This document shows, in pieces, positions 21,821-34,556 of a stretch of DNA of 34,556 nt (positions are counted from its first letter, which is position 1; every line of letters starts with the position of its first letter). This DNA comes from Candidatus Binatia bacterium (lineage in GTDB: Bacteria; Desulfobacterota; Binatia; UBA12015): assembly GCA_019749875.1 (NCBI GenBank), contig JAIEPK010000429.1:1-34556 (forward strand), written 5' to 3'. Both the position numbers and the translations under genes were made by a program. Below the pieces are notes generated by a model. That model was not told the DNA's origin and searched no databases. It worked only from the letters and a program-made list of their open reading frames with translations.

Positions 21821-21965
21821 GAGGGAAACTGCCTTGGCAAATCCGCTGGGCGCTCGGGCGAGAGGACGACGGGGGGAAGGTCGCCCCAACGGGACACGTC
21901 GGTGCTACCTGCGCGGTCACGACGCAGGCAAGGCAGAAATTCGTGCGCCGCAAGAAAATCTCGAT

Positions 21966-22015
21966 GCGGTCAACCGTCGACCGCCGACGTGCCGACGGAC
22001 GGGCCGGCACGTCGG
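21966..22015 (-). terminator. Tandem stem-loops after the ferric-reductase-like gene
   Basis: CCGACGTGCCG (21984-21994) and CGGCACGTCGG (22005-22015) form a perfect 11 bp stem that abuts the stop codon at 22016. A second stem, GCGGTC (21966-21971) with GACCGC (21979-21984), follows. No strong T-run is present, but the tandem strength suggests a transcription boundary before the di-heme fusion gene. The remaining 145 bp to that gene shows no clear promoter. Confidence 0.5.
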
Positions 22016-22624
22016 TCAGGCGGCTTCCGCGAGATCCGACGGGCCGTTCCTGCGCCGGCCGGCGACGCGCAGGCCCAGCGCCGCGACGCAGGCGAGCGCG
22101 AAGATCGCGAACACGTCCGGTGCGCGTCCCAGCCGTCCGGCGTAGGTGAACGTGAACACGAACCAGAGCCACCACATGCCGAAGCGGTGCAGGCGGCGCC
22201 ATCGCGCCCCGCCGAGCCGGCGGACGGACGCGTCGTTCGAGGTCGCGGCCATGAGCGCGGTCGCGACCAGCGCCCCGCCGCCGACGAACAGGGTCGCCGG
22301 CGAGGGCACGGTGCCCTTCACGACGTTGAACGTCACCAGGCTCACCGCGTGTGCCGCGAAGATGGTCGCGAACGCGAGGCCGAGCGCACGCCGGTGGCGC
22401 ACCAGCCAGCGCGGCAGCGGCCCGGGACGGAGGCGCTGCCACGGGCTCGCGACGAACGCCGCGAGGAATACCGGAAAGGCGAGACGCGCCGTGTAACGCG
22501 CGGCGAGCTGCCAGCCGCCGGCGACGTCCTCACCGCGCCCGAGCCCGATTGCGACCGCGCCGAGCCCGACCACCGCGGCCATCGCGCACGCCACACCGAC
22601 GCCGCGGGATCTCGCTCCGCTCAT
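22016..22624 (-). CDS. Ferric-reductase-like transmembrane protein
   Basis: A 202-residue membrane protein with about six hydrophobic segments. It resembles the heme-binding membrane part of the ferric reductase/NADPH oxidase/MsrQ superfamily, with arginines and histidines such as VRHRRALGLAF (H77), IFAAHAV (H92) and RRLHRFGMWW (H146) in positions suited to binding b-type heme across the membrane. No NAD- or flavin-binding domain is attached, so it would need a partner. The ATG at 22624 is preceded by TAGGTC ending 8 nt upstream, and no ribosome site is present. The gene precedes the di-heme fusion on the same strand with a 195 bp gap holding tandem hairpins. A link in electron transfer between them is tempting but unproven. 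Confidence 0.72.
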   Translation of the reverse strand: MSGARSRGVGVACAMAAVVGLGAVAIGLGRGEDVAGGWQLAARYTARLAFPVFLAAFVASPWQRLRPGPLPRWLVRHRRALGLAFATIFAAHAVSLVTFNVVKGTVPSPATLFVGGGALVATALMAATSNDASVRRLGGARWRRLHRFGMWWLWFVFTFTYAGRLGRAPDVFAIFALACVAALGLRVAGRRRNGPSDLAEAA

Positions 22625-22632
22625 GGCCGTAC

Positions 22633-22638
22633 GACCTA
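22633..22638 (-). promoter_or_regulatory. Possible -10 element (TAGGTC) for the ferric-reductase-like gene
   Basis: TAGGTC on the minus strand ends 8 nt before the ATG at 22624, with no ribosome site between. A weak TTTTCC lies 17 bp further upstream. Confidence 0.35.
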
Positions 22639-22657
22639 GAACGATCGACGGCGGCGG

Positions 22658-22678
22658 AAAAGCGGCGCGTTTCGCCGC
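22658..22678 (-). terminator. Intrinsic terminator for the small Cys-rich secreted protein gene
   Basis: On the minus strand GCGGCG-AAACG-CGCCGC is followed directly by TTTT. It begins 28 bp after the stop codon at 22707 and is the best intrinsic terminator in the window. Confidence 0.65.
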
Positions 22679-22706
22679 GCGTGGACCGCCGCCTGCAGGG
22701 CGTCGC

Positions 22707-22997
22707 TCACTTCGCCATCGGGCACTTGCCCTCGTGCCAGCCCGACTTCATCTTGCCGGCCTCCTCGGCCTCGGATTTCTTCAGCGCCTGGTCGTATTTG
22801 GTCTTGTCGTCGTACTGCGGCGCGGCTTGCTGCTTGGCGAGGCACGCCTTCTCGGTGCTCTCGCTGCAGTGCTCGGGACCGCCCCCCATGCAGCAGCAGC
22901 CGGTCGGCTCGGCCACCGCGCCGGCGGGCGAGGTGGTCGTGCCCCCGACGAGCAGGAGCCCGGCGACCATCGCGGTGACGAGACGTCCGTTCCTCAT
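22707..22997 (-). CDS. Small secreted cysteine-rich protein, unknown function
   Basis: A 96-residue protein with an amino-terminal signal sequence (hydrophobic VTAMVAGLLLVGG, likely cut near AGA-V). The mature part opens with PTGCCCMGGGPEHCSESTEKACLAK, which holds five cysteines, then a charged helical stretch, and ends in GWHEGKCPMAK. The cysteine cluster and following His suggest metal binding or disulfides; I do not recognise the family. The start is set by the ribosome site GGGAGGA before the ATG. A TTGACA/CTATCT promoter lies just upstream and a good intrinsic terminator downstream, so it is a one-gene unit. mgtE lies upstream on the same strand. Confidence 0.8.
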   Translation of the reverse strand: MRNGRLVTAMVAGLLLVGGTTTSPAGAVAEPTGCCCMGGGPEHCSESTEKACLAKQQAAPQYDDKTKYDQALKKSEAEEAGKMKSGWHEGKCPMAK

Positions 22998-23018
22998 CGT
23001 CGTTTCCTCCCGCGGCGC

Positions 23019-23047
23019 AGATAGGTCGGAGACGTGGACCATGTCAA
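23019..23047 (-). promoter_or_regulatory. Sigma-70-like promoter for the small Cys-rich gene
   Basis: On the minus strand TTGACA (23042-23047) and CTATCT (23019-23024) are 17 bp apart; alternatively TATCTG with an 18 bp spacer. The predicted start of transcription lies about 13-15 nt before the ATG, leaving room for the GGGAGGA ribosome site. Confidence 0.6.
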
Positions 23048-23077
23048 CGACGACCGGGTCCCGACGCGACCGCCGGG

Positions 23078-24379
23078 CTACTGGATCATCGGCATGAACA
23101 GCACGGCGAAGCCGAGGAAGGCCGTGAATCCGACGATGTCGGTGACCGTGGTGAGGAAGATCGACGCGGATTGCGCGGGATCGCGGCCCGCGGCGCGCAG
23201 CAGCAGCGGGATGCCGGCGCCGGCGAGACCGGCGGCCGCCATGTTGACGATCATCGCGAGCGCGATCACCAGGACGAGCCCGATGCGGCCGTCCCACAGG
23301 AAGACGGCGAAGCCGGTCACGACGGCGATCGCGAGGCCGTTGAGGATCGCGGCGAGCGTCTCCTTCACCATCACGCGGCGTGACGTGCCGGAGCCGAGCT
23401 CGCGCAGCGCGATGCCGCGGATCACGACCGCAAGGGACTGCGCGCCGGTGTTGCCGCCCTGCCCCGCGACGATCGGCAGCAGCACCGCAAGCGCCGTGAC
23501 CTTCTCGATCACGCCCTCGAAGACCCCGATCACGGCCGAGGCGAGGAACGCGGTCGCGAGGTTCACCAGCAGCCACGGCAGGCGCTTCTTGACGACGGTC
23601 GCGACGGGCGACAGCGCGCGCTCGTCCTCGCCCGCGCCGGACAGCTTCTGCAGGTCGCCGAAGGCCTCTTCCTGCACGGCCTCGATCACCTCGTCGTGCT
23701 TGACGATGCCGAGCAGGCGTCCGTCCTGGTCGACCACCGGCAGCGCGATGAAGCGGCGATCAGTCATGAGCTGTGCCAGCTCCTCGCGGTCCATCGTCGC
23801 CGGCACCGACACCACGTCGCGGTGCACCATGCTCGCGACCGGATCCGAGGGCTGCGCGAGCAGCAGCTCGCGCATGTTGAGCACGCCGGCGAGGCGTCCC
23901 TCGCGATCGGTCACGTAGAGGTAGTACAGCGTCTGGCGCGGCGCGCGACGGATCGCATCGATCGCGTCGTTGACCGTGAGGTCGATCGCGATCGAGGTGA
24001 CGTGAGGCTCCATCATCCCGCCCGCGCTGTCCGACGGGTACACGAGCAGGCTGCGGATCTGGCGCGCGCGCTGCGCCGGGAGGCCGTCCAGGGTCGCGTC
24101 GCGCAGCGCCTCGTCCACGTGGTGCAGGATCGCCGCCGCATGCCGGGGCGGCAGGTGGTCGAGCAGCTCGCGCCCCTCGTCGGCGCCGATCTCGGCGAGG
24201 ATCGCTCCGGCGGGCTCGGCGGCGAGCCGCTCGAGAACCGCGCCGACCGAGCGTGCGGGGAGGCGGCGCAGGATCTCGCCGGCGTCTGCGGGCGACAGGC
24301 TCTCGAGCGAGCGGGCGGCGTCCTCGGGATGCTCGATCACGAACGAGCGCACCAGCGACTCGAGAGCTTGCGTTGCCAA
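23078..24379 (-). CDS. mgtE: Magnesium transporter MgtE
   Basis: A 433-residue channel-type magnesium importer. Residues 1-125 form the cytoplasmic N domain of helical repeats (LLDHLPPRHAAAILHHV). A pair of CBS domains follows at about 130-255 (MMEPHVTSIAIDLTVNDAI, then MVHRDVVSVPATMDREEL), the cytosolic magnesium sensor. Residues 270-433 hold about five membrane helices, with the conserved LPIVAGQGGNTGAQSLAV loop and the pore aspartate in TTVTDIVGF. The start is a TTG at 24379, chosen because it gives the normal amino end and has a strong AAGGAG ribosome site six bases upstream; the frame stays open further upstream through repeat DNA that is not coding. Length is typical for the family. Confidence 0.94.
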   Translation of the reverse strand: MATQALESLVRSFVIEHPEDAARSLESLSPADAGEILRRLPARSVGAVLERLAAEPAGAILAEIGADEGRELLDHLPPRHAAAILHHVDEALRDATLDGLPAQRARQIRSLLVYPSDSAGGMMEPHVTSIAIDLTVNDAIDAIRRAPRQTLYYLYVTDREGRLAGVLNMRELLLAQPSDPVASMVHRDVVSVPATMDREELAQLMTDRRFIALPVVDQDGRLLGIVKHDEVIEAVQEEAFGDLQKLSGAGEDERALSPVATVVKKRLPWLLVNLATAFLASAVIGVFEGVIEKVTALAVLLPIVAGQGGNTGAQSLAVVIRGIALRELGSGTSRRVMVKETLAAILNGLAIAVVTGFAVFLWDGRIGLVLVIALAMIVNMAAAGLAGAGIPLLLRAAGRDPAQSASIFLTTVTDIVGFTAFLGFAVLFMPMIQ

Positions 24380-24397
24380 GGCCGTCTCCTTTTCCGA

Positions 24398-24418
24398 CGA
24401 GGAGGGCCCGTCTCCTCG
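24398..24418. repeat. Degenerate copy of the CGAGGAG palindrome
   Basis: CGAGGAG-GGCCCGT-CTCCTCG is a 7 bp palindromic stem. It is a diverged relative of the palindrome at 24432 and of those at 31449 and 31513. Confidence 0.6.
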
Positions 24419-24431
24419 CATGTCATCGCAA

Positions 24432-24497
24432 CGAGGAGACCCGTCTCCTCGCCCCACGCCTCTGCTCGCTTCGCTCGGCCCGCGCTGCGCGCGGGCC
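24432..24497. repeat. REP-like element, two-hairpin form
   Basis: A perfect palindrome, CGAGGAGAC-CC-GTCTCCTCG (24432-24451), is followed by CCCCACGC, then CTCTGCTCGCTTCGCTC and a second hairpin GGCCCGCGC-TGC-GCGCGGGCC (24477-24497). The same two modules occur at 31513-31601 with a third hairpin between them. It sits in the divergent gap between mgtE and the ABC1-type kinase. Confidence 0.75.
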
Positions 24498-24604
24498 GGG
24501 GCGCGGACGTCGTAGCACATGGTCCGGGAGGGGGAATGAGTGACGAGCGGTGATCGTCCTTCCTTGACGGCGTGCGGAACCTCGCCTGCCCCGGAGGGCG
24601 GTGG

Positions 24605-24610
24605 TAGGGT
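24605..24610 (+). promoter_or_regulatory. Possible -10 element (TAGGGT) for the ABC1-type kinase gene
   Basis: TAGGGT ends 9 nt before the GTG start at 24620, with no ribosome site between. A TTGACG at 24564 is too far away to serve as its -35. Confidence 0.35.
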
Positions 24611-24619
24611 CGTCACGAC

Positions 24620-26002
24620 GTGGCGCGGAAGAACCCCGAGAAGCAGCATCTGACGACGGGCCGCACGCGGCGCGCGCTGAAGGTCGGCACGCTGACCACG
24701 CAGGTCGGCGGCAACTACCTCCTGAACGCGCTCAAGCGGCCCTTCCAGTCGGTTGACGAGCGCCAGAAGGACCTGCTCGACACGCACCTCAAGAACGCGA
24801 TGCTGATCGTCGAGCGCTCGCAGGAGCTGAAGGGCACGTTCCTGAAGCTGATGCAGATGCTCAGCATGCGCGGCGATCTGCTGCCGCCCGACGTCCTGCA
24901 GGTGCTGTCGGTCGTGCAGTCGGAAGTGCCGCCGATGCCGTACGACATGATCCGCGCGCAGATCGTCGACGAGCTCGGGGCGCCGCCGGAGCAGCTCTAC
25001 GCGCAGTTCACCGAGGAGGCCTTCGCGGCGGCCTCGCTCGGGCAGGTGCACCGCGCGACGCTGCACGACGGCAGCGACGTCGTGGTCAAGGTCCAGTATC
25101 CCGGCGTCGACAAGACGGTCGGCCAGGACCTGAAGAACGTGAAGGCGCTGCTGCAGACCTTCACGCTGATCGCGCGCGACGTGCTGCGCCAGAAGGTCGA
25201 CGTCGACGGCGTGTATCAGGAGCTCGCCGAGCGCCTCGGCGAGGAGCTCGACTACGAGAACGAGGCGCGCAACACCGAGCGCTTCGCCGCCATGTTCGCG
25301 GACGACGACGAGATCGTCATCCCGCGCGTCTTTCCGAAGCTGGTGTCGCGGCGGGTGCTCACCATGAGCTACGTCGAGGGCTACAAGCTCGCCGACATGC
25401 TGAATCCCGGCGTCGACCAGGAGCTCAAGGACTGGATCGCCGTCAAGTATTTTCGCACGCTGTGGCGGCAGGTGTTCGAGTTCGGCACGCTGCACACCGA
25501 TCCGCACCCCGGCAACTACCTGGTCACGTATCATCCGAAGCTCGCGATCCTCGACTTCGGCTCGATCCGCATCTTTCCCGACGAGATCCGCGCGGACTAC
25601 CTGCAGCTCGCGCGCGCGCTGCTCGACCGCAAGCGCGACGACGCCGCGCACGCCTGCGTGGCGCTCGGCTTCATCGACCAGGGAGACGACCCGCAGCCGA
25701 TGCTCGACATGCTCGACCAGATCTTCGATCCGGTCTACGAGGATCGCGTCTACGACCCGCGCGACTACGACACCATGGAGCGCGCGATGAAGGTCGCGAG
25801 CATCAGCCTCGAGAAGCGCGTCTTCAAGTCGCCCGGCCACAGCGTGTTCCTGGTGCGGGCGCTGGTCGGGCTCGACTCGTACATCCAGCAGTTCGGCACG
25901 GTGACGAACTTTCACCGGCTGTTCCGCGATTGCATCGCCGAAGCGGAGCAGCGCAGCGCGAGGGGCACGGCCAAGCGTCCGGGGCGCGCGCGGCGGGCCT
26001 GA
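24620..26002 (+). CDS. ABC1/AarF/UbiB-type atypical kinase
   Basis: A 460-residue atypical protein-kinase-like protein of the ABC1 family; relatives support ubiquinone or other isoprenoid-lipid synthesis. The signature near the amino end appears as K76-L-M-Q79, where most members have KxGQ, so the usual glycine is replaced. The alanine-rich loop AAASLGQVHRA, the lysine strand VVVKVQYPG, the catalytic TDPHPGNYLV and the metal-binding LDFGSIRIF are present. The start is the GTG at 24620 with a TAGGGT hexamer 9 nt upstream. The stop overlaps the ATG of larC by one base (TGATG), so the two are translationally coupled. A direct link to nickel-pincer synthesis is not known. Confidence 0.9.
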   Translation: MARKNPEKQHLTTGRTRRALKVGTLTTQVGGNYLLNALKRPFQSVDERQKDLLDTHLKNAMLIVERSQELKGTFLKLMQMLSMRGDLLPPDVLQVLSVVQSEVPPMPYDMIRAQIVDELGAPPEQLYAQFTEEAFAAASLGQVHRATLHDGSDVVVKVQYPGVDKTVGQDLKNVKALLQTFTLIARDVLRQKVDVDGVYQELAERLGEELDYENEARNTERFAAMFADDDEIVIPRVFPKLVSRRVLTMSYVEGYKLADMLNPGVDQELKDWIAVKYFRTLWRQVFEFGTLHTDPHPGNYLVTYHPKLAILDFGSIRIFPDEIRADYLQLARALLDRKRDDAAHACVALGFIDQGDDPQPMLDMLDQIFDPVYEDRVYDPRDYDTMERAMKVASISLEKRVFKSPGHSVFLVRALVGLDSYIQQFGTVTNFHRLFRDCIAEAEQRSARGTAKRPGRARRA

Positions 26003-27318
26003 TGGCGATCGCCTACCTCGACACGTTCTCGGGCATCAGCGGCGACATGACCGTCGGCGCGTTCCTCGACCTCGGCATGCCGCTCGACGGTCTCGAGCGC
26101 GGTCTCGCGGCGCTCGGCGTGGACGGCTTCCGGCTCGAGGTCGGCGAGCGCGTCCGCTCGGGGATCCGCGCGACCAAGCTCACGGTCGATCTCGGTCGCC
26201 CCGATCCCGGTGTGTTCGTCCCGGCCGCACCGCCGCGTGCGTCCGGCGCGTTGCGCACGGACGGACGACACGGTCCGCATCGCCCCTACCGCCGGATCCG
26301 CGCGCTGCTCGATCGCGCGGCGCTGCCCGCGCGTGTGCGCGACCGCGCGCAGCGCGTGTTCCGCGCGCTGGCCGTGGCGGAAGGCAAGGTCCACGGCGTC
26401 TCTCCCGACGAGGTCGTCTTCCACGAGGTCGGAGCAGTCGACGCGATCGTCGACGTCGTCGGTACCGCGCTCTGCCTCGAGCACTTCGGCGTCGACGAGG
26501 TCCTGGTGTCGCCGCTGCCGCTCGGCTCGGGCTTCGTGCGCACGCAGCACGGCGTGATGCCGGTGCCGGCACCGGCGACGCTCGAGCTCTTGACGGGCTT
26601 TCCCGTTCGCCCGGACGATGGCGCGACGGAGCTCGTGACCCCGACCGGCGCCGCGATCGTCGCCGCACTCGCCCGACCCGGCGCCGCGGGTGACGTCATC
26701 CCGCGCGCGGTCGGCTACGGCGCCGGCGAGCGCGAGCTCGCCGACCGCCCGAACTTGCTGCGCGTGATCCTCGGCGAGCGCGCGCCGACGCGCGCCGCAT
26801 CACCGGCCGCGATGGCCGGCGCGGGGCCCGGGCTGCTGCGCGAGACGATGGTCGTCATCGAAGCGAACGTCGACGACATGAACCCGGAGATCCTGCCGGT
26901 CGCCGTCGAAGCCCTTCTCGCCGCCGGCGCCCGCGACGTGACGCTGGCACCGGTGACGATGAAGAAGGGACGGCCCGGCACCCTGCTGCAGATCATCGCC
27001 GAGCCCGCCGAACGGGAGCGGATCGCGGGCGTGCTGCTGCGCGAGACCTCGACCATCGGCGTGCGCACCTACGCCGTCGAGCGGCTCGTCCTGCCGCGCG
27101 AGGAGCAGCGGGTCACGACGCGCTTCGGCGAGATGCGCGTCAAGGTCGTCACGCTGCCCGACGGCAGCCGGCGCGCAGCACCGGAGCACGAGGACTGCCT
27201 GCGCGCGGCGCGCAAGCACGACGTGCCGCTCGCGCAGGTGCAAGCGGAGGCGATGCTCGCGGCACACGTGCTGATTTCGGCTGCGGCCGACGCTTCGCGC
27301 GACGCCGGCGAACGCTGA
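26002..27318 (+). CDS. larC: LarC, nickel-pincer cofactor nickel insertase
   Basis: A 438-residue CTP-dependent cyclometallase that inserts nickel into the pincer nucleotide, the last step of its synthesis. The amino end AYLDTFSGISGDMTVGAFLDLG is the family signature. Other blocks include the HEVGAVDAIVDVVG and TPTGAAIVAAL segments, then a variable Ala/Arg-rich linker near residue 265, and the C-terminal EANVDDMNPEILP and KKGRPGTLLQ blocks. In some lactobacilli LarC is split by a programmed frameshift; here it is one continuous frame. The ATG overlaps the kinase stop by one base. LarB is encoded 12 kb away in the same orientation. Confidence 0.94.
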   Translation: MAIAYLDTFSGISGDMTVGAFLDLGMPLDGLERGLAALGVDGFRLEVGERVRSGIRATKLTVDLGRPDPGVFVPAAPPRASGALRTDGRHGPHRPYRRIRALLDRAALPARVRDRAQRVFRALAVAEGKVHGVSPDEVVFHEVGAVDAIVDVVGTALCLEHFGVDEVLVSPLPLGSGFVRTQHGVMPVPAPATLELLTGFPVRPDDGATELVTPTGAAIVAALARPGAAGDVIPRAVGYGAGERELADRPNLLRVILGERAPTRAASPAAMAGAGPGLLRETMVVIEANVDDMNPEILPVAVEALLAAGARDVTLAPVTMKKGRPGTLLQIIAEPAERERIAGVLLRETSTIGVRTYAVERLVLPREEQRVTTRFGEMRVKVVTLPDGSRRAAPEHEDCLRAARKHDVPLAQVQAEAMLAAHVLISAAADASRDAGER

Positions 27319-27392
27319 CGTCTCGGGCGGCGCGGGTACGACGCCGATCCGTGCGGAGCGCGCAGGCACGTCGCCGCGCGCTGCGAGCGGTG

Positions 27393-27417
27393 GTCGTCGG
27401 CGCGCTTCTCCGACGAC
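27393..27417. terminator. Stem-loop between convergent larC and the HIT-GNAT gene
   Basis: GTCGTCGG (27393-27400) and CCGACGAC (27410-27417) form a perfect 8 bp stem with a 9 nt loop, placed between two convergent genes. No T-run is present. Confidence 0.45.
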
Positions 27418-27443
27418 GCGCGGTGCGTCGCATCTGGATCGCG

Positions 27444-28430
27444 TTACAGCTCGCGCTCGAGCGGCAGCAGGACGAGACGGCGCGCGCCGCTGACGCGCGA
27501 GATGCGCTCGCCGGTCGGGCGAAACCCGTGCCGTCCGAGGACCTCGCGCGCACGTGCATTGTCGTCGGCGACGCCGAGGCGCAGGCGCACGCAGCCCTGC
27601 GCGCGCGCCCACTCGACCATCCAGCGGATCATCGCGGCGCCGTGGCCGTGTCCGCGCAGCTTCGGGTGCAGCAGCAGGATGCCCATCCACGCGAGCCCGG
27701 GCCGCGGATAGTTCCGGTAGAGGTCGAGCGCGCCGATCAGGTCGCGGCCCTGGTGCACGCCGATCACCAGCTTGTCGGCGGCCTTGGCGGTCTCGGGCAC
27801 GGCATGCATGAGACCGTGCGCCTCGGTCGGGCTCGCCGGCGCACCGGTCATGAGCTCGAAGTAGTCGCTGCAGGCCTCGCACAGCGCCTGCAACGCGGGC
27901 AGCTGGTCGCGGCGCAGCGGCTCGAAGCGCAGCTCGCCCTCGCCGCCGCCCATCTCGTGCAGGATCGCGGTGCGGAGCCGGGTCGCGAGCGCGACCATCT
28001 CCTCGTCGGGCAGGTGCACCGGCGGCTCGCCGAACAGCGTCAGCGGTCCGGGTGGAGAGCCGTCGTCGGCGTAGCGCGGAAACACGTGGCAGTGCAGGTG
28101 CGGGATCACGTTGCCGAGGATCTCGTAGTTGACCTTGACCGGCGCGCACGTCTGGTGGACGCCGCTCGCCACCGCCATCACGTCGTCGAAGAATGCCCGC
28201 GCCTCGTCCGGCGGCAGCTGGAAGGGCTCGACCACGTGCTTGACGGAGACCACGACGCAGTAGCCGCGCTGGCGCTGGTTGCGCGACAGGCGGACCAGCG
28301 AGCTGTCGGTGCGCAGCAAGGTCACGCCGTAGCGGTCCTGGTCGTGCGGCAGCGCCATCGCCTCGCACAGCGGGCACTCGTCGCCGCGGCACATGCGCTC
28401 CCAGGAGTCGCGATCGAGCCAGCCTCGCAT
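27444..28430 (-). CDS. HIT-domain and GNAT acetyltransferase fusion protein
   Basis: A 328-residue protein joining two enzyme folds. Residues 1-125 are a HIT nucleotide hydrolase/transferase: the CPLC pair at 19-22, and the histidine triad H111-L-H113-C-H115. Residues from about 160 form an acetyltransferase of the GNAT type, with strands ending in AWMGILLLHPKLRG, the acetyl-CoA loop RGHGHGAAM, and the terminal LGRHGFRPTGERISR. A HIT enzyme would split a nucleotide ester, while the GNAT part would acetylate an amine; the two substrates are unknown. The start is the ATG at 28430; a TTG 39 bp upstream is less likely, and neither has a ribosome site. It is divergent from the TPR lipoprotein gene and convergent with larC. 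Confidence 0.85.
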   Translation of the reverse strand: MRGWLDRDSWERMCRGDECPLCEAMALPHDQDRYGVTLLRTDSSLVRLSRNQRQRGYCVVVSVKHVVEPFQLPPDEARAFFDDVMAVASGVHQTCAPVKVNYEILGNVIPHLHCHVFPRYADDGSPPGPLTLFGEPPVHLPDEEMVALATRLRTAILHEMGGGEGELRFEPLRRDQLPALQALCEACSDYFELMTGAPASPTEAHGLMHAVPETAKAADKLVIGVHQGRDLIGALDLYRNYPRPGLAWMGILLLHPKLRGHGHGAAMIRWMVEWARAQGCVRLRLGVADDNARAREVLGRHGFRPTGERISRVSGARRLVLLPLEREL

Positions 28431-28785
28431 GGCGCGGGGACTTTGCAATTCGGGGGGCGGGCGAGTCAATCGAAACGGCCTGCGTGCGCGATCGCAGCAC
28501 GGATGTCTCGCGGCGGGGAGCGGTCTCCGTGCGTCGAGAGTCGCCTCGCATGCGCCGCTGGATCGCCGCGTGAGTTCGGCGGGTCCGGCGAGCTGCGCTC
28601 GCCGACCCGCTCACGCTTCGCACACGCCGCGACCCCACCGGCGCACGCGAGGCTCGCGCCGTGCCGGCTCCCGTGTCGCTCCATGCGTGAGAACCGTGCC
28701 CCGGTCGCGCATGCTTTTGGGGCAGCGGAGAGGCAGATGCGCGCTTTGCCGGCGGTGGGGGTCGTGTTAACGCTGGAGCACGAAA
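28431..28785. other. Divergent intergenic region before the TPR gene
   Basis: This 355 bp gap has no credible coding sequence. It holds a long hairpin at 28571-28613, described separately. The GCTTTTGGGGCAGCGGAG sequence at 28713-28730 recurs upstream of dnaK. GTTAAC at 28766-28771 could be a -10 element for the downstream gene, and GGAG at 28775-28778 could be its ribosome site, though both can hardly be used from one transcript start. Confidence 0.5.
28571..28613. repeat. Long inverted repeat (hairpin)
   Basis: GCGGGTCCGGCGAGC (28579-28593) pairs with GCTCGCCGACCCGC (28597-28610) through a three-base loop, with one bulged base; TGA/TCA extends it. It is a very stable cruciform or message hairpin in a promoter region. 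No second copy was seen. Confidence 0.6.
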
Positions 28786-30540
28786 ATGAAGAATCCGCTC
28801 GCGCTGCTCTTGCTCGCCTCGGCGGTTTCCCTTCCGGCCTGCTCCACCCTGCATCTCACCCGCGGCACGAGCCCCGCGGAGCCCGCCCAGAAGGCGTCCG
28901 CCGAGCAGCTCGGCCTCACCACCGACGATCTCGCGCTCGCCCACTTCCTGAAGGGCGAGGTCGCGATGCGCAACGCCGACTACGACGTCGCGACGCGCGA
29001 GTTCGAGGCCGCGGTCAAGCTCGATCCGGAGGAGCCGCGTCTGCGCGCGCGCCTCGCGAACCTCTACGTCCGCCAGGGCGACCTGTCGCGCGGCTACGAG
29101 CAGGCGAGCGCGGCCGTCGCGGGCGACCCCGACGACATCCAGTCCCGCCTGCTGCTCGCCGGAACCCTCGCCGGGCTCGGTCGCGAGAACGAGGCCGCGC
29201 TGCAGTACGGCGAGATCATCCAGCGCGATCCCGGAACGCCGGAGGCGTATCTCTTCCTCGCCGCGCTGAGCAGCAAGTCGGGCAACGACCAGGTCGCGAC
29301 CGCGACCCTCGAGAGCCTGATCGAGGCCAACCCGAACTCGGTCATGGGCTACTACTACCTCGGCCGGCTGCACGCCGGCGCGGGACGCCTCGACCAGGCC
29401 GAGCACATGTTCAACGAGGCGCTGAAGCGCAACCCGCGCTCGGCGCTGGTGATGACCGATCTGGCGCTCGTCGAGGAGATGAAGCAGCAGCCCGAGAAGG
29501 CGAGCGCGCTCTACCGCAAGGCGCTCGCCGCCGATCCGGAGAACGTCATCGCGCGCAATCGCCTGGCCTCGCTGCTGGTCGGTCAGAAGCGGCTCGACGA
29601 GGCGCTCGCCGAGTTCCGCGAGCTCGAGCGCATCGAGGCCGACCCGACCGAGACGCGCGTCAAGATCGGCCTGATCTACCTCGAGAAGGGCGACCTCGAC
29701 CGCGCCTCGACCGAGCTCAGCCTGGTCCTCAGCACCGATCCCGACAACGCACGCGTGCGCTACTACCTCGGCGTCGTGTTCAGCGAGACCGGCGAGCTCG
29801 CCCGCGCGCGCGAGAACCTGTCGGCGGTCGCGGTCGGATCGCCGTTCTACCCCGACGCTCAGCTGCAGCTCGCGTATCTGGCGCAGAGCGAGGGCAACCT
29901 GAGCGCCGCGGCCGACCATGCGAGCGCGGCGCTGAAGGCGCGCCCGGGCTCGACCAGCATCATCGAGTTCCTGGTGTCGCTCGAGCGCGAGCGCAAGCAG
30001 CTGCAGGCGGCGATCGGATACGCGCAGAAGCTGGTCGAGGTCGACCCCGGCAACGACCGCTACCGCTTCATGCTCGGCGCGCTCTACACGGACGCCGGCG
30101 ACAAGCAGGCGGCGCTCGACCAGATGCGCAAGGCCATCGAGCTCAATCCCCAGAACGCGGCAGCGCTCAACTTCCTCGGCTACTCGCTGGCGGAAGAGGG
30201 CCGCGATCTCGACGAGGCCGAGCGGCTGATCCGGCGCGCGCTGGCGATCGATCCGAACGACGGCTTCTACGTCGACAGCCTCGGCTGGGTGTACTACCAG
30301 CGCGGCCAGTTCCCGCAGGCGGTCGAGGAGCTCGAGCGCGCCGTCGAGCTGACCGGCGACGACCCGACGATCACCGAGCACCTCGCCGACGCGTACATCC
30401 AGGTCGGCCGCGAGCTCGAGGCGCTGCGCCTCTACCGCGACGCACTCCGCCGCAGCGAGGACTCGGCGCAGCGCGCCCGTCTCGAGGGCAAGGTGCGTAC
30501 GATGGAGCGGGCCGACAAGGCGGGCGCGCCGCGCCTGTGA
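28786..30540 (+). CDS. TPR-repeat lipoprotein
   Basis: A 584-residue predicted lipoprotein with a signal sequence and lipobox L16-P-A-C19. From about residue 50 to 565 it is made of tetratricopeptide repeats, roughly 14 to 15, for example YDVATREFEAAVKLDPEEP, RLDQAEHMFNEALKRNPRS and FPQAVEELERAVELTGDDP. The repeats form a scaffold for protein contacts. The last 20 residues are a charged tail. The ATG follows a short GGAG ribosome site. It is followed 2 bp after its stop by the DUF4292 lipoprotein gene, so the two are probably co-translated and act together at the outer membrane. TPR lipoproteins near LolB-like proteins are common in deltaproteobacterial genomes (general knowledge), but the partner cargo is unknown. 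Confidence 0.92.
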   Translation: MKNPLALLLLASAVSLPACSTLHLTRGTSPAEPAQKASAEQLGLTTDDLALAHFLKGEVAMRNADYDVATREFEAAVKLDPEEPRLRARLANLYVRQGDLSRGYEQASAAVAGDPDDIQSRLLLAGTLAGLGRENEAALQYGEIIQRDPGTPEAYLFLAALSSKSGNDQVATATLESLIEANPNSVMGYYYLGRLHAGAGRLDQAEHMFNEALKRNPRSALVMTDLALVEEMKQQPEKASALYRKALAADPENVIARNRLASLLVGQKRLDEALAEFRELERIEADPTETRVKIGLIYLEKGDLDRASTELSLVLSTDPDNARVRYYLGVVFSETGELARARENLSAVAVGSPFYPDAQLQLAYLAQSEGNLSAAADHASAALKARPGSTSIIEFLVSLERERKQLQAAIGYAQKLVEVDPGNDRYRFMLGALYTDAGDKQAALDQMRKAIELNPQNAAALNFLGYSLAEEGRDLDEAERLIRRALAIDPNDGFYVDSLGWVYYQRGQFPQAVEELERAVELTGDDPTITEHLADAYIQVGRELEALRLYRDALRRSEDSAQRARLEGKVRTMERADKAGAPRL

Positions 30541-30542
30541 GC

Positions 30543-31448
30543 ATGTCCGGCTCCGTCGCCCGTGGCGCCGTCGCGGGCGTGCTCGCGCTCGCTCTATTCT
30601 CCGGCTGCGCCGCGGTGCGCCCGGGCGGTGCAGGTCTCGGCAGCAAGGCGCTCGACGAGGCGACGCCGCAGGCGCTCGGTCGCGTCATCGAGGGACATCG
30701 CGCGGCGCTGCGCGGGCTGACCGGGACCGGCAAGCTGCAGGTGTCGGTCGACGAGTGGAAGAACGGCGAGACCGTGCGCGACCGGCTGCGCGCGTCGCAG
30801 GCGATCGTCGTCGAGCGGCCGGCGTCGTTCCGGCTCGAGGCGCTGTCGCCCTTCGGCGTGACCTACGCGGTCGCGAGCGACGGCGCGCAGCTCGCGATCC
30901 TCATCCCCGGCGAGCGGACCGTCTACCGCGGCGCCGCGTCGGCGCCGACGCTCGGCATGGCGACCGGCGTCGCGGCGAGCTCGGCGGAGGTCGCGGAGGT
31001 CCTGCTCGGGCTGCCGCCAGTACCCGAGCTATCGCTGCGCAACGCCTGGGTGTCGCGCGGCCGCGAGGCCGGGCTCGCGACGGGTGACGTCGCGGGCGAG
31101 CTCGAGCCGACCGTTCTGCTGCACGCCTACAGCGACCAGGCGCCGGGTGATACGTTCGTGGTCGGCTTCGCACCGCTGCCCGATCAGGACGCCGTCGCCG
31201 TGGTCTTCTTCGAGCGCATCTCGTCGGAGGGCGAGAAGCTGCTCGAGGCGCGCTTCGGCAACTTCCGCACGATCGGCGAGGTGCCGTTCGCGAGCGCCGT
31301 GACGGTGCGCACGCCGAAGGCGGAAGCGATCCTGCAGTACGGCGACGTCACGCTGAACCCGGCGATCGACCGCAGCCGCTTCGAGCTGCCGACACCAGCG
31401 GGCATGCGCCAGGCGCCGCTGCTGCCGCCCGCCGACGATCAGTTTTGA
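30543..31448 (+). CDS. DUF4292-type LolB-like lipoprotein
   Basis: A 301-residue predicted outer-membrane lipoprotein. The signal segment VAGVLALALFSGCAAV places the lipidated cysteine at C22. The mature part resembles DUF4292, a relative of the LolA/LolB lipoprotein-carrier fold, with the strand pattern LTGTGKLQVSVDE, RPASFRLEALSPFGVTYAVASDG and LAILIPGERTVYRG. A possible role is lipoprotein or lipid binding at the outer membrane. The ATG at 30543 begins 2 bp after the TPR stop; a GTG overlapping that stop (30537) is an alternative start that adds two residues. The stop codon overlaps the first base of a palindromic repeat element that may also end transcription. Confidence 0.82.
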   Translation: MSGSVARGAVAGVLALALFSGCAAVRPGGAGLGSKALDEATPQALGRVIEGHRAALRGLTGTGKLQVSVDEWKNGETVRDRLRASQAIVVERPASFRLEALSPFGVTYAVASDGAQLAILIPGERTVYRGAASAPTLGMATGVAASSAEVAEVLLGLPPVPELSLRNAWVSRGREAGLATGDVAGELEPTVLLHAYSDQAPGDTFVVGFAPLPDQDAVAVVFFERISSEGEKLLEARFGNFRTIGEVPFASAVTVRTPKAEAILQYGDVTLNPAIDRSRFELPTPAGMRQAPLLPPADDQF

Positions 31449-31501
31449 CGAGGAGACCTGTCTCCTCGCCCCACGCGGCAAAGCCGCGCGGGGCCCCACT
31501 C
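31448..31501. repeat. REP-like element, first 54 bp unit
   Basis: The palindrome CGAGGAGAC-CT-GTCTCCTCG (31449-31468) is followed by a second hairpin, CCCCACGCGGC-AAA-GCCGCGCGGGG, with one mismatch. The unit ends in CCCCACTC. It differs from the next unit at one base in the palindrome loop. It begins in the stop codon of the DUF4292 gene, so it may act as its terminator. Confidence 0.8.
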
Positions 31502-31511
31502 GCTTATTCCA

Positions 31512-31601
31512 ACGAGGAGACCCGTCTCCTCGCCCCACGCGGCAAAGCCGCGCGGGGCCCCACTCCTCTGCTCGCTTCGCTCGGCCCGCGCTTCGCGCGG
31601 G
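31512..31601. repeat. REP-like element, three-hairpin form
   Basis: A second 54 bp unit (31512-31565) nearly identical to the first, followed by CTCTGCTCGCTTCGCTC and a third hairpin CCCGCGC-TTC-GCGCGGG (31585-31601). The last module is shared with the element at 24432. Ten bases (31502-31511) separate the two 54 bp units. Confidence 0.8.
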
Positions 31602-31645
31602 AGGCCCGTGCGCAAATCCACTCCTCGTCCTGGGCGGGACGATCC

Positions 31646-31651
31646 GGTAAC
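31646..31651 (+). promoter_or_regulatory. Possible -10 element (GGTAAC) for the solute-binding protein gene
   Basis: GGTAAC ends 8 nt before the ATG at 31660, with no ribosome site between. GTTAAC and GCTAAC precede the genes at 28786 and 33674. Confidence 0.3.
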
Positions 31652-31659
31652 ACGCTTCG

Positions 31660-33390
31660 ATGCTCTTCCCGCGGCGTGCGACGCTCGTGCTCACCGTCGC
31701 GGCGCTGCTGCTGCTCGCGAGCGCGTGCGAGCGTGACGGCGCGCGCGGCGGCCGACGCCACGGTGGCGGCCCCACCAACCGGCTCGTCAACGCGATCCTG
31801 AGCGACCCGAAGACGTTCAACCCGGTGCTGGTGACCGACGCGACGTCGTCGGACGTGCTGAAGCCGATCTTCGAGGGGCTGGTCGACACCGACGTCCTCA
31901 CCACGCTGCCGAAGCCGCAGCTCGCCGAGCGCTGGGAGTGGAGCGAGGACGGCAAGACCTGCACGTTTCATCTACGCCGCGACGTGCGCTGGCACGACGG
32001 GCAGCCGTTCCGCGCGGCCGACGTGGTGTTCACGTTCGACGCCGTGTTCGACGACAAAGTTCCGAACAGCGCGCGCTTCACCCTGACGGTCGCGGGGCAG
32101 CCCGTCCGCCCGGAAGCCGTCGACGAGCACACGGTGCGCTTCGTCCTGCCGCAGCCGTTCGCGCCGTTCCTGTCGGCGGTCGGGATCGGCATCCTGCCCG
32201 AGCACATCCTGGGAAAGGCCCTCGCCGAGGGACGCTTCGCCGAGACCTGGGGCATCGACACGCCGCCCGAGAAGCTGATCGGGACGGGGCCGTACAAGCT
32301 GAAGCGCTACGAGTCGGCGCAATACCTGGAGTACGCGCGCAACGACGACTACTGGCAACGCGACCACGAGGGAAAGCGCCTGCCGTATCTCGAGCGCCGC
32401 GTGACTCTGATCGTGCCGGAGCAGAACGCGGCGAGCCTGCGCTTCCTCGACGGTCAGACGCACTACTACGCGCCGCGCCCCGAGGAGATCGCCGACCTCC
32501 AGGACCGGGCGGCGCAGCTCGGCATCGTCGTCAAGGACGTCGGCGTCGACTCGGGAACGCTCTTCATCTCGTTCAATCGGAACCCGCGCCGCTACCCCGA
32601 CGGCGACCCGCGACTCACCTGGTTCACCGACCGCCGCTTTCTGACCGCGCTCGCGCACGCGGTCGACAAGCAGGGCATGATCGACACGATCTACTACGGC
32701 TTCGGCGAGCCCGCGGTGGCGTACGTCTCGCCCGCGAACCCCGTGTTCCACAACCCGGACCTGAAGGACTACGCGTACGATCTCGATCTCGCGGCGCGCC
32801 TGCTCGACGAGGCGGGCTACGTCGATCGCGACGGCGACGGCGTGCGCGAGGATCCGCAGGGCAACAAGGTCGAGTTCGGCCTCGTCACCAACGCCGGCAA
32901 CCTGCTGCGCGAGCGCATGTGCTCGATCCTGCTGGACGACTGGACGCGGCTCGGGCTGAAGATCAACTACCGCCCACAGACCTTCCAGTCGCTGGTGGAG
33001 CGCCTGACGACGACGTTCGACTGGGACGCGGTGATCATGGGCTTCACCGGCAGCATCGATCCGAACAACGGCGCCAACCTGCTGCGCTCGAGCGGCAACC
33101 TGCACCTGTGGAACCCGGCGCAGAAGACGCCCGCGACGCCGTGGGAGGCAGAGATCGACCGTCTGCTGGACGAAGGTGCGGCGGAGCTGGACCTCGACAA
33201 GCGGCGACTCGCCTACTTCCGCATCCAGGCGATCCTGCACGACGAGCTGCCGCTGATCGAAACGGTCCGGCAGCGGCAGGCGATGGCGTACAGCGCGGAC
33301 CTGCGCGACTTCGTCCCGACGGTGTGGGGGCTGTACGAGCCGGAGCGCATCCGCATCGGCCCGTCTTCGGGGACGCAGCCGACCGAGTGA
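31660..33390 (+). CDS. ABC-type oligopeptide solute-binding lipoprotein (SBP_bac_5 family)
   Basis: A 576-residue extracytoplasmic binding protein of the dipeptide/oligopeptide family. The amino end has a signal sequence and a lipobox ending at C23 (LLASAC). Family blocks are clear: LVNAILSDPKTFNPVL, the RWEWSEDGKTCTFHLRRDV segment, WHDGQPFRAADVVFTFD, IGTGPYKLKRYE and DPNNGANLLRSSGN. It would deliver peptides or similar solutes to an inner-membrane permease. No permease or ATPase gene follows in the window, so it is an orphan or its partners are elsewhere. The ATG has a GGTAAC hexamer 8 nt upstream. A weak stem CGGCGG/CCGCCG (33394-33415) follows the stop. Confidence 0.93.
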   Translation: MLFPRRATLVLTVAALLLLASACERDGARGGRRHGGGPTNRLVNAILSDPKTFNPVLVTDATSSDVLKPIFEGLVDTDVLTTLPKPQLAERWEWSEDGKTCTFHLRRDVRWHDGQPFRAADVVFTFDAVFDDKVPNSARFTLTVAGQPVRPEAVDEHTVRFVLPQPFAPFLSAVGIGILPEHILGKALAEGRFAETWGIDTPPEKLIGTGPYKLKRYESAQYLEYARNDDYWQRDHEGKRLPYLERRVTLIVPEQNAASLRFLDGQTHYYAPRPEEIADLQDRAAQLGIVVKDVGVDSGTLFISFNRNPRRYPDGDPRLTWFTDRRFLTALAHAVDKQGMIDTIYYGFGEPAVAYVSPANPVFHNPDLKDYAYDLDLAARLLDEAGYVDRDGDGVREDPQGNKVEFGLVTNAGNLLRERMCSILLDDWTRLGLKINYRPQTFQSLVERLTTTFDWDAVIMGFTGSIDPNNGANLLRSSGNLHLWNPAQKTPATPWEAEIDRLLDEGAAELDLDKRRLAYFRIQAILHDELPLIETVRQRQAMAYSADLRDFVPTVWGLYEPERIRIGPSSGTQPTE

Positions 33391-33393
33391 CCT

Positions 33394-33415
33394 CGGCGGT
33401 GGGGTCGTTCCGCCG
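33394..33415 (+). terminator. Weak stem-loop after the solute-binding protein gene
   Basis: CGGCGG (33394-33399) pairs with CCGCCG (33410-33415), three bases after the stop codon. Only CTT follows, so intrinsic termination is doubtful. Confidence 0.35.
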
Positions 33416-33448
33416 CTTGACGGACGGACTTCGTGCCCGCGCAGGGGC

Positions 33449-33545
33449 GGCCATGCGCGGGTTCCGCTCCGGTCGCCATCGTTGGGAGGCAATTCAGTCT
33501 TCCTGCGGAGCGGCTCCCAAGCAGTCGCTCCACCCGCGCATGGCC
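33449..33545. repeat. 97 bp structured element with a 14 bp perfect inverted repeat and inner arms
   Basis: GGCCATGCGCGGGT (33449-33462) is the exact reverse complement of ACCCGCGCATGGCC (33532-33545). Inside are two further inverted pairs: CCGCTCC (33464-33470) with GGAGCGG (33507-33513), and TTGGGAG (33482-33488) with CTCCCAA (33514-33520). These inner pairs cross, so they could form a pseudoknot or alternate. The element lies in a gene-free gap of 283 bp and has no credible reading frame. It may be a mobile repeat or a structured RNA. Confidence 0.6.
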
Positions 33546-33658
33546 ACCTCTCCGCTCGATCCGCCGTGCCGCGACGGAGCCGACCGCGCGGCTCGCGCGG
33601 CGCTGCGTGCCGGTCGACCGTCGCTCCGCGTACGCGTCTTGTGGGGCGGGAGGGGGAT

Positions 33659-33664
33659 GCTAAC
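33659..33664 (+). promoter_or_regulatory. Possible -10 element (GCTAAC) for the metallophosphoesterase gene
   Basis: GCTAAC ends 9 nt before the ATG at 33674, preceded by a very G-rich stretch. No clear Shine-Dalgarno motif lies at the right distance. Confidence 0.3.
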
Positions 33665-33673
33665 CCGCCGGGG

Positions 33674-34556
33674 ATGCCGCGGCTTCGGATCGTGCAGACC
33701 TCGGACGTGCACCTGCGTCCCGATCGTCCCGAGCGCCGGCGGGCGCTGGAGCTGGTGTTCGCCCAGGCCGCGGCGCGCGCGGCGGACGTCGTCATCCTCG
33801 CGGGCGACCTCTTCGACCGCGCGGTCGACGCGCAGGCCGAGCGTGCCGCGGTGCGCAAGATGGTCGAGGAGCTGGCGCCGCGGCCGGTGATCTTCGTGCC
33901 CGGCAACGCCGACCAGGACGCGTACACCGCCAGCGCCGACTTCGGCAGCAACGCCCTGCTGCTCGCGAAGACACCGTACACGCGAGCGCGCATCTCGGGC
34001 CTCGAAGTCGTCGGCGTGCCGTACCAGGCGGGACGGAGCTTGGCCGAGTGCTTGACCGGGCTCACCTGCGAGCCGCGGCACACCGTGCTGATCGCGCACG
34101 GCACCCTGCTCGACGCCGGCGCCGACGCGTTTCCGGGCGACGGCGAGGACGCGGCCTTCATGCCGATCTTCGCGCAGGATCTGACGCGCCGCTTCAGCTA
34201 TGCGGCGCTCGGACACCTGCACGGGGGCGACGCATTGGTGCGCCGCGAGGACCAGCGCCTGATCGCGTACGCCGGCTCCCCGGTCGCGACGAGCCGCCGC
34301 GAGCTCGGTCCGCGCAGCGTCGTGGTGGTCGACTTCGAGCCGGGTGTCGGCGTGCTCGCGCACGAGGTGGTGCCGCTGCTGACCCCGTCGTACGAGCTGG
34401 TGCACGTGGTCTGCCTGCCCGGCGCGGAGCAGGACGCGATCGAGCGCCTCGCGCGCGAGGCCGCAGCGAAGAAGGGACCCGGCGTGCGCGTGATCGCGCG
34501 CCTCTCGGGTGCGACGACCGAGCCGCTGGACGCGCTGCGCGCCGCCGCCGAGCGCG
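33674..34556 (+). CDS. Metallophosphoesterase, SbcD/Mre11-like, 3'-truncated by window edge
   Basis: The first 294 residues of a calcineurin-like phosphoesterase; the frame is open to the last base. Metal-site motifs are visible: D11-V-H13, G44-D-L-F-D48, G77-N-A-D80, the IAHG motif and GHLHGG. The overall order, with RLRIVQTSDVHL at the start and AYAGSPVATSRRELG later, resembles DNA repair exonucleases of the SbcD/YhaO type. The third motif reads GNAD where SbcD enzymes have GNHD, so the histidine used for catalysis in that family is an alanine. Simple phosphodiesterases with GNxD also exist, so the substrate is open. No SbcC-type ATPase is visible, but it would lie downstream of the window. 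Confidence 0.85.
   Translation, partial: MPRLRIVQTSDVHLRPDRPERRRALELVFAQAAARAADVVILAGDLFDRAVDAQAERAAVRKMVEELAPRPVIFVPGNADQDAYTASADFGSNALLLAKTPYTRARISGLEVVGVPYQAGRSLAECLTGLTCEPRHTVLIAHGTLLDAGADAFPGDGEDAAFMPIFAQDLTRRFSYAALGHLHGGDALVRREDQRLIAYAGSPVATSRRELGPRSVVVVDFEPGVGVLAHEVVPLLTPSYELVHVVCLPGAEQDAIERLAREAAAKKGPGVRVIARLSGATTEPLDALRAAAER

Follow-up and report, generated by a model that had tools for sequence, protein, structure and literature searches.

The window is the whole stretch of 34,556 nucleotides analysed here, and its source genome (G000) is a 7.78-Mb MAG of 680 contigs with an estimated completeness of 96.75%. Two loci within it carry related hairpin modules, named H1, H2, S and H3, and the larger of the two begins in the stop codon of one gene and ends upstream of another on the same strand. 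The features are as follows.

24397 to 24419, plus strand: imperfect additional H1, cut short at its 3' end, preceding the second locus
24432 to 24451, plus strand: H1 of the second locus
24460 to 24495, plus strand: S and H3 of the second locus, with H2 missing and a variant H3 loop
30543 to 31448, plus strand: upstream gene (codon-usage gene model), its TGA stop overlapping unit 1
31448 to 31501, plus strand: unit 1, made of H1, H2 and CCCACTC, a 3'-truncated copy
31449 to 31468, plus strand: H1 of unit 1, CGAGGAGAC-CT-GTCTCCTCG
31469 to 31494, plus strand: H2 of unit 1, CCCCACGCGGC-AAA-GCCGCGCGGGGC
31502 to 31511, plus strand: left-end sequence of unit 2, GCTTATTCCA, which fits the family motif G-Y-N-R-T-Y-N-C-M-A
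31512 to 31601, plus strand: unit 2, complete H1-H2-S-H3
31513 to 31532, plus strand: H1 of unit 2
31533 to 31558, plus strand: H2 of unit 2
31566 to 31584, plus strand: S module CTCTGCTCGCTTCGCTCGG, mini-stem GC-TTC-GC
31585 to 31601, plus strand: H3, CCCGCGC-TTC-GCGCGGG
31660 to 33390, plus strand: downstream gene, SBP_bac_5 solute-binding protein (gene model and Pfam)

A preliminary description of this DNA had recognised two near-identical 54-bp units and a third hairpin, and this anatomy held: the units (31448-31501 and 31512-31565) start 64 bp apart and differ at a single base, the H1 loop reading CT in the first and CC in the second, with H3 at 31585-31601. It had also rightly placed the start of unit 1 inside the upstream stop codon, since the unit opens with the A of the TGA (31446-31448), and the modules do recur at 24432 in another combination, H1, S and H3 without H2, at a locus (24397-24495) that sits between divergent genes. 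Two of its annotations fell away. The label DUF4292 for the upstream gene is unverified, as a Pfam search of the encoded protein (30543..31448) returned nothing at E<=0.001, and the Shine-Dalgarno-like GAGGAG is merely part of the palindrome arm, with no suitably placed start codon. The exact H1 palindrome is found at three places in the window (24432, 31449 and 31513) against 0.11 expected after shuffling, while H2 with its AAA loop and the S module are each present twice, with a shuffled expectation of 0.00 for both. Compared with shuffled sequences the region folds much more favourably, with a z of -5.7 as RNA and -5.4 as minus-strand DNA; on the minus strand the S module reads GC-GAA-GC, with flanking G.A opportunities. 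Elsewhere in the window, minus-strand genes at 17980-19152 contain six to seven tandem degenerate repeats within the coding region (repeat family D1, period 174-210 bp), which suggests a repeated protein domain.

Rather than being confined to the window, the modules belong to a dispersed and nearly entirely intergenic family, as a genome-wide count proposed in the preliminary description made plain. A BLAST search of G000 with unit 2 gave 65 matches, and a covariance model built from 31 units, with the RNAalifold consensus as its structure, gave at least 131 at E<=0.01. Many contigs terminate inside or beside a copy (e.g. C560, C670, C241 and C655), as expected of a repeat that breaks assembly, so the true copy number is probably above 131. 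The family unit spans ~95 bp and comprises H1, ACGAGGGGGC-ACGC-GCCCCCTCG; H2, CCCCACGCGGC-AAA-GCCGCGCGGGGC; the sequence CCCACTCCCC; the short GC-TNC-GC mini-stem S, GCGCTCGCTTCGCTCGGC; and H3, CGCGCGCTTCGCGCGCG. In H1 the copies of the window depart from this consensus and represent a minority variant. To the left of the unit, G-Y-N-R-T-Y-N-C-M-A precedes CGAGG, although the motif is weak in G000.

Copies are often joined in arrays, which run head-to-tail in a single orientation in nearly all clusters; REP and inverted REP do not alternate. Of the G000 units, 98 have an intact left end, and 29 of these come immediately after another copy, which breaks off after the H1 loop (7), inside the H1 3' arm (2), after H1 (1), after H2 (10), after H2 plus CCCCACTC as at the window (3) or after H3 (6). 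In 23 of these 29 the preceding copy thus keeps its left end and is cut at its 3' end inside or just after H1 or H2. Such break points would fit synthesis that stalls at hairpins and switches template back to the left end.

The stems themselves are well supported by covariation across 40 units from seven genomes. Standard pairs fill 93.8% of the paired cells, and two-sided changes occupy 76 cells, compared with 24.5 in shuffles and no more than 13 with slid partners; within H2, 7 of 11 pairs have changed on both sides. The 103 H2 stems of G000 show 42 different 5' arms and contain 1034 Watson-Crick pairs, 10 G.U pairs and 89 other pairs, 55 of which fall at one fixed A.C position. The scarcity of G.U pairs suggests that H2 stems are kept at the DNA level, or exchanged as whole stems through conversion or hairpin-templated repair, instead of being compensated stepwise at the RNA level. 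We also noted that the base in CCYC just after H2 tracks the basal pair of H2 (columns 25, 47 and 51 of alignment A1), with CTCC..GGAG followed by CCTC and CCCC..GGGG followed by CCCC; this mirror-like three-way correlation could be subfamily ancestry.

The position of the elements relative to genes was determined with a purpose-written codon-usage gene caller. Of the 87 G000 clusters, 33 lie between tandem genes, 29 between convergent genes and 1 between divergent genes; 23 are at contig edges, and the last falls within a low-scoring ORF. The second window locus, a weak partial match, was excluded from this table. Divergent settings account for 1 of the 63 clusters with genes on both sides, against 87 of 305 in a background made up of every intergenic gap of 60 bp or more from the same loci (164 tandem, 54 convergent and 87 divergent; Fisher p ~1e-9, clusters versus other gaps). 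In 60 of 77 G000 clusters the H1 side faces a stop codon, at a median of 9 nt and within 15 nt in 38 of the 77, while the H3 side lies farther off, at a median of 46 nt from stops. The H1 side is also turned toward the stop in 13 of 17 cases in the congener G001 and in all 22 copies analysed in a more distant carrier, G032. The proximity to a stop codon seen at the window is a real trait of the whole family, oriented and found in four genomes.

The best-resolved insertions are those of G032, whose near-uniform population of ~135-bp elements runs from YTAR|ATCAGCGAGG to GAGCTCC and starts directly after YTAR, usually the in-frame stop. YTAR stands immediately 5' of ATCA-H1 in ~17 of 22 copies, and 14 of the 22 begin exactly 4 nt after an in-frame stop. 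Outside the elements, 136 kb of this genome (L316-L335) hold 63 YTAR sites, with 18 at in-frame stops, 38 in intergenic DNA and 7 in coding sequence. A target of this type, rare in coding DNA, would bring elements to gene ends without selection. However, filled sites overuse in-frame stops (14 of ~17 insertions, compared with 18 of 63 available YTAR), and target availability alone does not explain this excess. Comparison of left and right ends revealed no consistent target duplication in G032, and none was found in G000.

Other carriers show further variants of the left end. In G025 (L382-L399) four or more element subfamilies can be told apart, and the 4-nt linker that follows TAG or TAA is particular to each (TCTA, CTCA, ATCA or TTCA), as if the left-end tags diversified along with the hairpin. 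A second subfamily in G010 (L366, L368, L371 and L378-L381) has an H1 of GAGAGGGG-CGCCG-CCCCTCTC and the left end CATTCG or CAATCG, and several of its copies are found next to a start codon, 10-16 nt away, and not behind a stop.

Across the class the family is patchy, being carried by 7 of 148 genomes in two families: G000 and its congener G001; G003; G010, the only carrier in a genus represented by four genomes; and three genomes that share a genus in the other family (G025, G032 and G091). Matches number at least 131 in G000, 80 in G001 and 89 in G010. An exact copy of the H2 pattern also turned up on a 3.9-kb contig (L163; VGBT01000085.1) whose MAG is labelled Actinomycetota and comes from the sample that yielded G010; a binning error may account for it. 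A 795-kb sample of G001 provided 17 sites orthologous to G000, and as we read the alignments, both genomes have a copy at about half of them; the others are empty, decayed or hold copies in opposite orientation. The window site is filled in G001, with one unit against two in G000 and with a different H2 stem, GTTCGGGC-GAA-GCCCGAAC rather than ACGCGGC-AAA-GCCGCGC. Three G032 sites (L325, L331 and L320) have no element in the related G091 and G025, and at element-free counterparts the stop is TAG at some and TGA at others, so that the element may either reuse a TAG already present or bring its own. The preliminary description had proposed that presence or absence at each site would discriminate between mobility and fixation. 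The outcome was divided, since the three G032 sites are empty in relatives and some G000 sites are empty in G001, whereas several sites are common to G000 and its congener.

We considered whether the repeat acts at the 3' ends of transcripts. The preliminary description had suggested that unit 1 was adopted as a terminator, and for this we found no support in the sequence: there is no U-tract after any stem at the window site, and a search for terminator-like sites (a GC-rich stem with a U-tract) across 31300-31800 on either strand found none, and the reading as an intrinsic (Rho-independent) terminator was rejected on this ground. An Rfam search of window positions 20000-34556 assigned no family and returned one unrelated match below threshold. 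A different role remains conceivable, as E. coli REPs no more than 15 nt from a stop codon are reported to stall ribosomes, according to work cited in PMC12306157, and about half of the G000 clusters (38/77) lie within that distance; by analogy, the element may possibly act in translation termination or mRNA decay. More broadly, the repeat might be a functional mRNA 3'-end element kept by selection and copied by occasional duplication, its mobility being secondary. The tight oriented position behind stops in four genomes, the avoidance of divergent intergenic regions and the compensated stems at orthologous sites, the window site among them, all speak for such an element, but we regard it as unlikely, because U-tracts are lacking after the window stems, just 7 of the 148 class genomes carry the repeat, orthologous positions following the same genes are empty, near-identical G032 copies with fixed ends stand behind unrelated genes, and the second G010 subfamily adjoins start codons.

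The preliminary description had instead attributed the repeat to spread by a RAYT-type transposase, and proposed a search for the (Y1) gene. PF01797 and the NCBIfam model REP_Tyr_transpos (NF047646) gave zero matches in G000, G001 and G003, and a purpose-built profile (A2) of a divergent RAYT family gave zero matches in G000 and G001. The absence of a RAYT/Y1 gene from G000 is strong though not absolute, given a MAG that is 96.75% complete and in which repeats may be lost. The divergent family consists of proteins of 225-300 aa with an HxH motif and a conserved downstream Tyr, which score weakly with Pfam and NCBIfam models and fall below the REP_Tyr_transpos cut-off. Its genes are high-copy in the carriers G010, G025, G032 and G091 (11-17 matches) and occur at 1-4 matches in seven non-carriers; at a stricter E-value, 4 carriers are shared between the 11 RAYT genomes and the 7 element genomes, out of 148. 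This association is weak, since three of the four co-occurring genomes come from one genus, and co-occurrence is therefore suggestive at most, while the largest element populations are found where RAYT is absent. In the RAYT-bearing carriers, 20 loci (~3-5.5 kb) around Y1/RAYT genes contained one marginal element match. The RAYT-like copies have a 5' end of their own, RYCGATTCAAG, unlike the left end of the element. In G010 this end lies upstream of a TTGACTT-like promoter, and the RAYT-like family includes many fragments (L185-L196 and L198-L204 in G010, G025 and G032; also in G091).

These observations bear on the proposal that the repeat is a classical REP/BIME family moved in trans by a RAYT (Y1) that G000 encodes now or encoded recently. 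The high copy number of the divergent RAYT in four of seven carriers compared with RAYT-bearing non-carriers, the presence of both high-copy RAYT and the element in G010 only within genus g6, and the G032 left end (target tetranucleotide, 4-nt linker, hairpin), which resembles an IS200/IS605 end, are all in its favour. Nevertheless it appears distinctly improbable, as neither G000 nor G001, carriers with at least 131 and 80 copies, has a Y1/RAYT match, the GTAG tag is missing, units run head-to-tail rather than in alternating orientation, and one genus supplies three of the four co-occurring genomes. Spread by a RAYT was thus not borne out for G000. Chance palindromes or a MAG assembly artefact, to which the fragmented assembly and the many copies at contig ends might point, are refuted by a shuffled expectation of just 0.00-0.11 per window and by the recurrence of the family in several independent MAGs and on long contigs with unique sequence to either side.

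Comparison with known systems places the element near REPs without identifying it with any of them, and a literature search found no paper describing this family. Like REP/BIME sequences with RAYT (TnpA-REP), it is a short, GC-rich, palindromic intergenic repeat that is high-copy, clustered and modular, and as with E. coli REPs, a large share of which lie within ~15 nt of stop codons (PMC12306157), H1 is within 15 nt of a stop in 38 of 77 clusters. Unlike REP/BIME, its unit of ~95-135 bp has three or four stems and forms one-way head-to-tail arrays; a GTAG/CGTC foot tag is absent, with G-Y-N-R-T-Y-N-C-M-A before CGAGG in G000 and YTAR-ATCA in G032; and no RAYT is present in G000, while the RAYT genes of other carriers lack flanking element copies. 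The REP/BIME-like behaviour described at first therefore stands as a modular interspersed repeat with site differences between related genomes, but the tests of tag, orientation and enzyme failed in G000. CGTC-tagged REP elements without a dedicated transposase (PMC3733652) are likewise dispersed palindromic families with no linked transposase, and differ in having the CGTC tag and in lacking the multi-stem unit and the orientation behind stops. Non-autonomous IS200/IS605 derivatives (PATEs) share the non-coding hairpin element, which in G032 has fixed ends and abuts what may be a short target tetranucleotide; however, an autonomous parent with the same ends was not found, the left end of the RAYT copies differs, and the element ends are putative cleavage sites at most. 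The G/C-rich intrastrand triplex motif (TM; PMC4666352) likewise recurs many times between genes as a short structured sequence rich in G and C, but it is ~37 nt long without strand bias, whereas the element has another sequence and is an oriented series of duplex hairpins; identity with TM was rejected on sequence and anatomy.

Taken together, the copy number, structure, oriented stop anchoring, presence and absence at sites and patchy spread make this a dispersed element of mobile type. We conclude, with a probability of about 0.62, that the left-end motif and the modules H1, H2, S and H3 make up a short interspersed element of non-autonomous, REP/MITE-like type, which has multiplied in G000 and a few relatives and has settled with its H1 end against gene 3' ends. 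Shared congener sites at which structure is kept weaken this conclusion, being compatible with selection for function as well. The zero Y1 matches in the genome with most copies, the excess of in-frame stops among G032 insertions, and the weak left-end motif and missing target duplication in G000 also count against it; any mobiliser is putative, and mobility is deduced from the comparison of sites.

A plausible course is that the element moves, or moved, as folded single-stranded DNA and inserts on the 3' side of a short target that contains A/T (YTAR in G032), which in a 72% GC genome would be almost confined to stops and intergenic DNA. Copies would then expand locally by slippage at hairpins, giving head-to-tail arrays and 3'-truncated copies such as unit 1. 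The mobilising enzyme is probably of the HUH/Y1 type. As it is absent from G000 as assembled, the family there may be a relic or may have been moved from outside. Once settled, the element would place a stable hairpin in the 3'-UTR, with possible effects on translation termination or mRNA decay like those of E. coli REPs near stops. More speculatively, and we would hold this only tentatively, it might be a miniature single-stranded DNA element that homes to stops, its target being approximately the stop codon itself (YTAR), so that it supplies or reuses the stop; its stems would be kept by whole-stem switching without G.U intermediates, and it would be moved by the divergent RAYT clade or by an unrecognised enzyme.

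The stop-codon position of a repeat family can here be explained by the rarity of its target in coding DNA, an account that offers a testable explanation for REP-like clustering at gene ends in general. The family is patchy and linked to genomes in which a divergent RAYT clade is high-copy, yet its largest populations occur where RAYT is absent, and it provides a natural setting for asking what becomes of such repeats after transposase loss.
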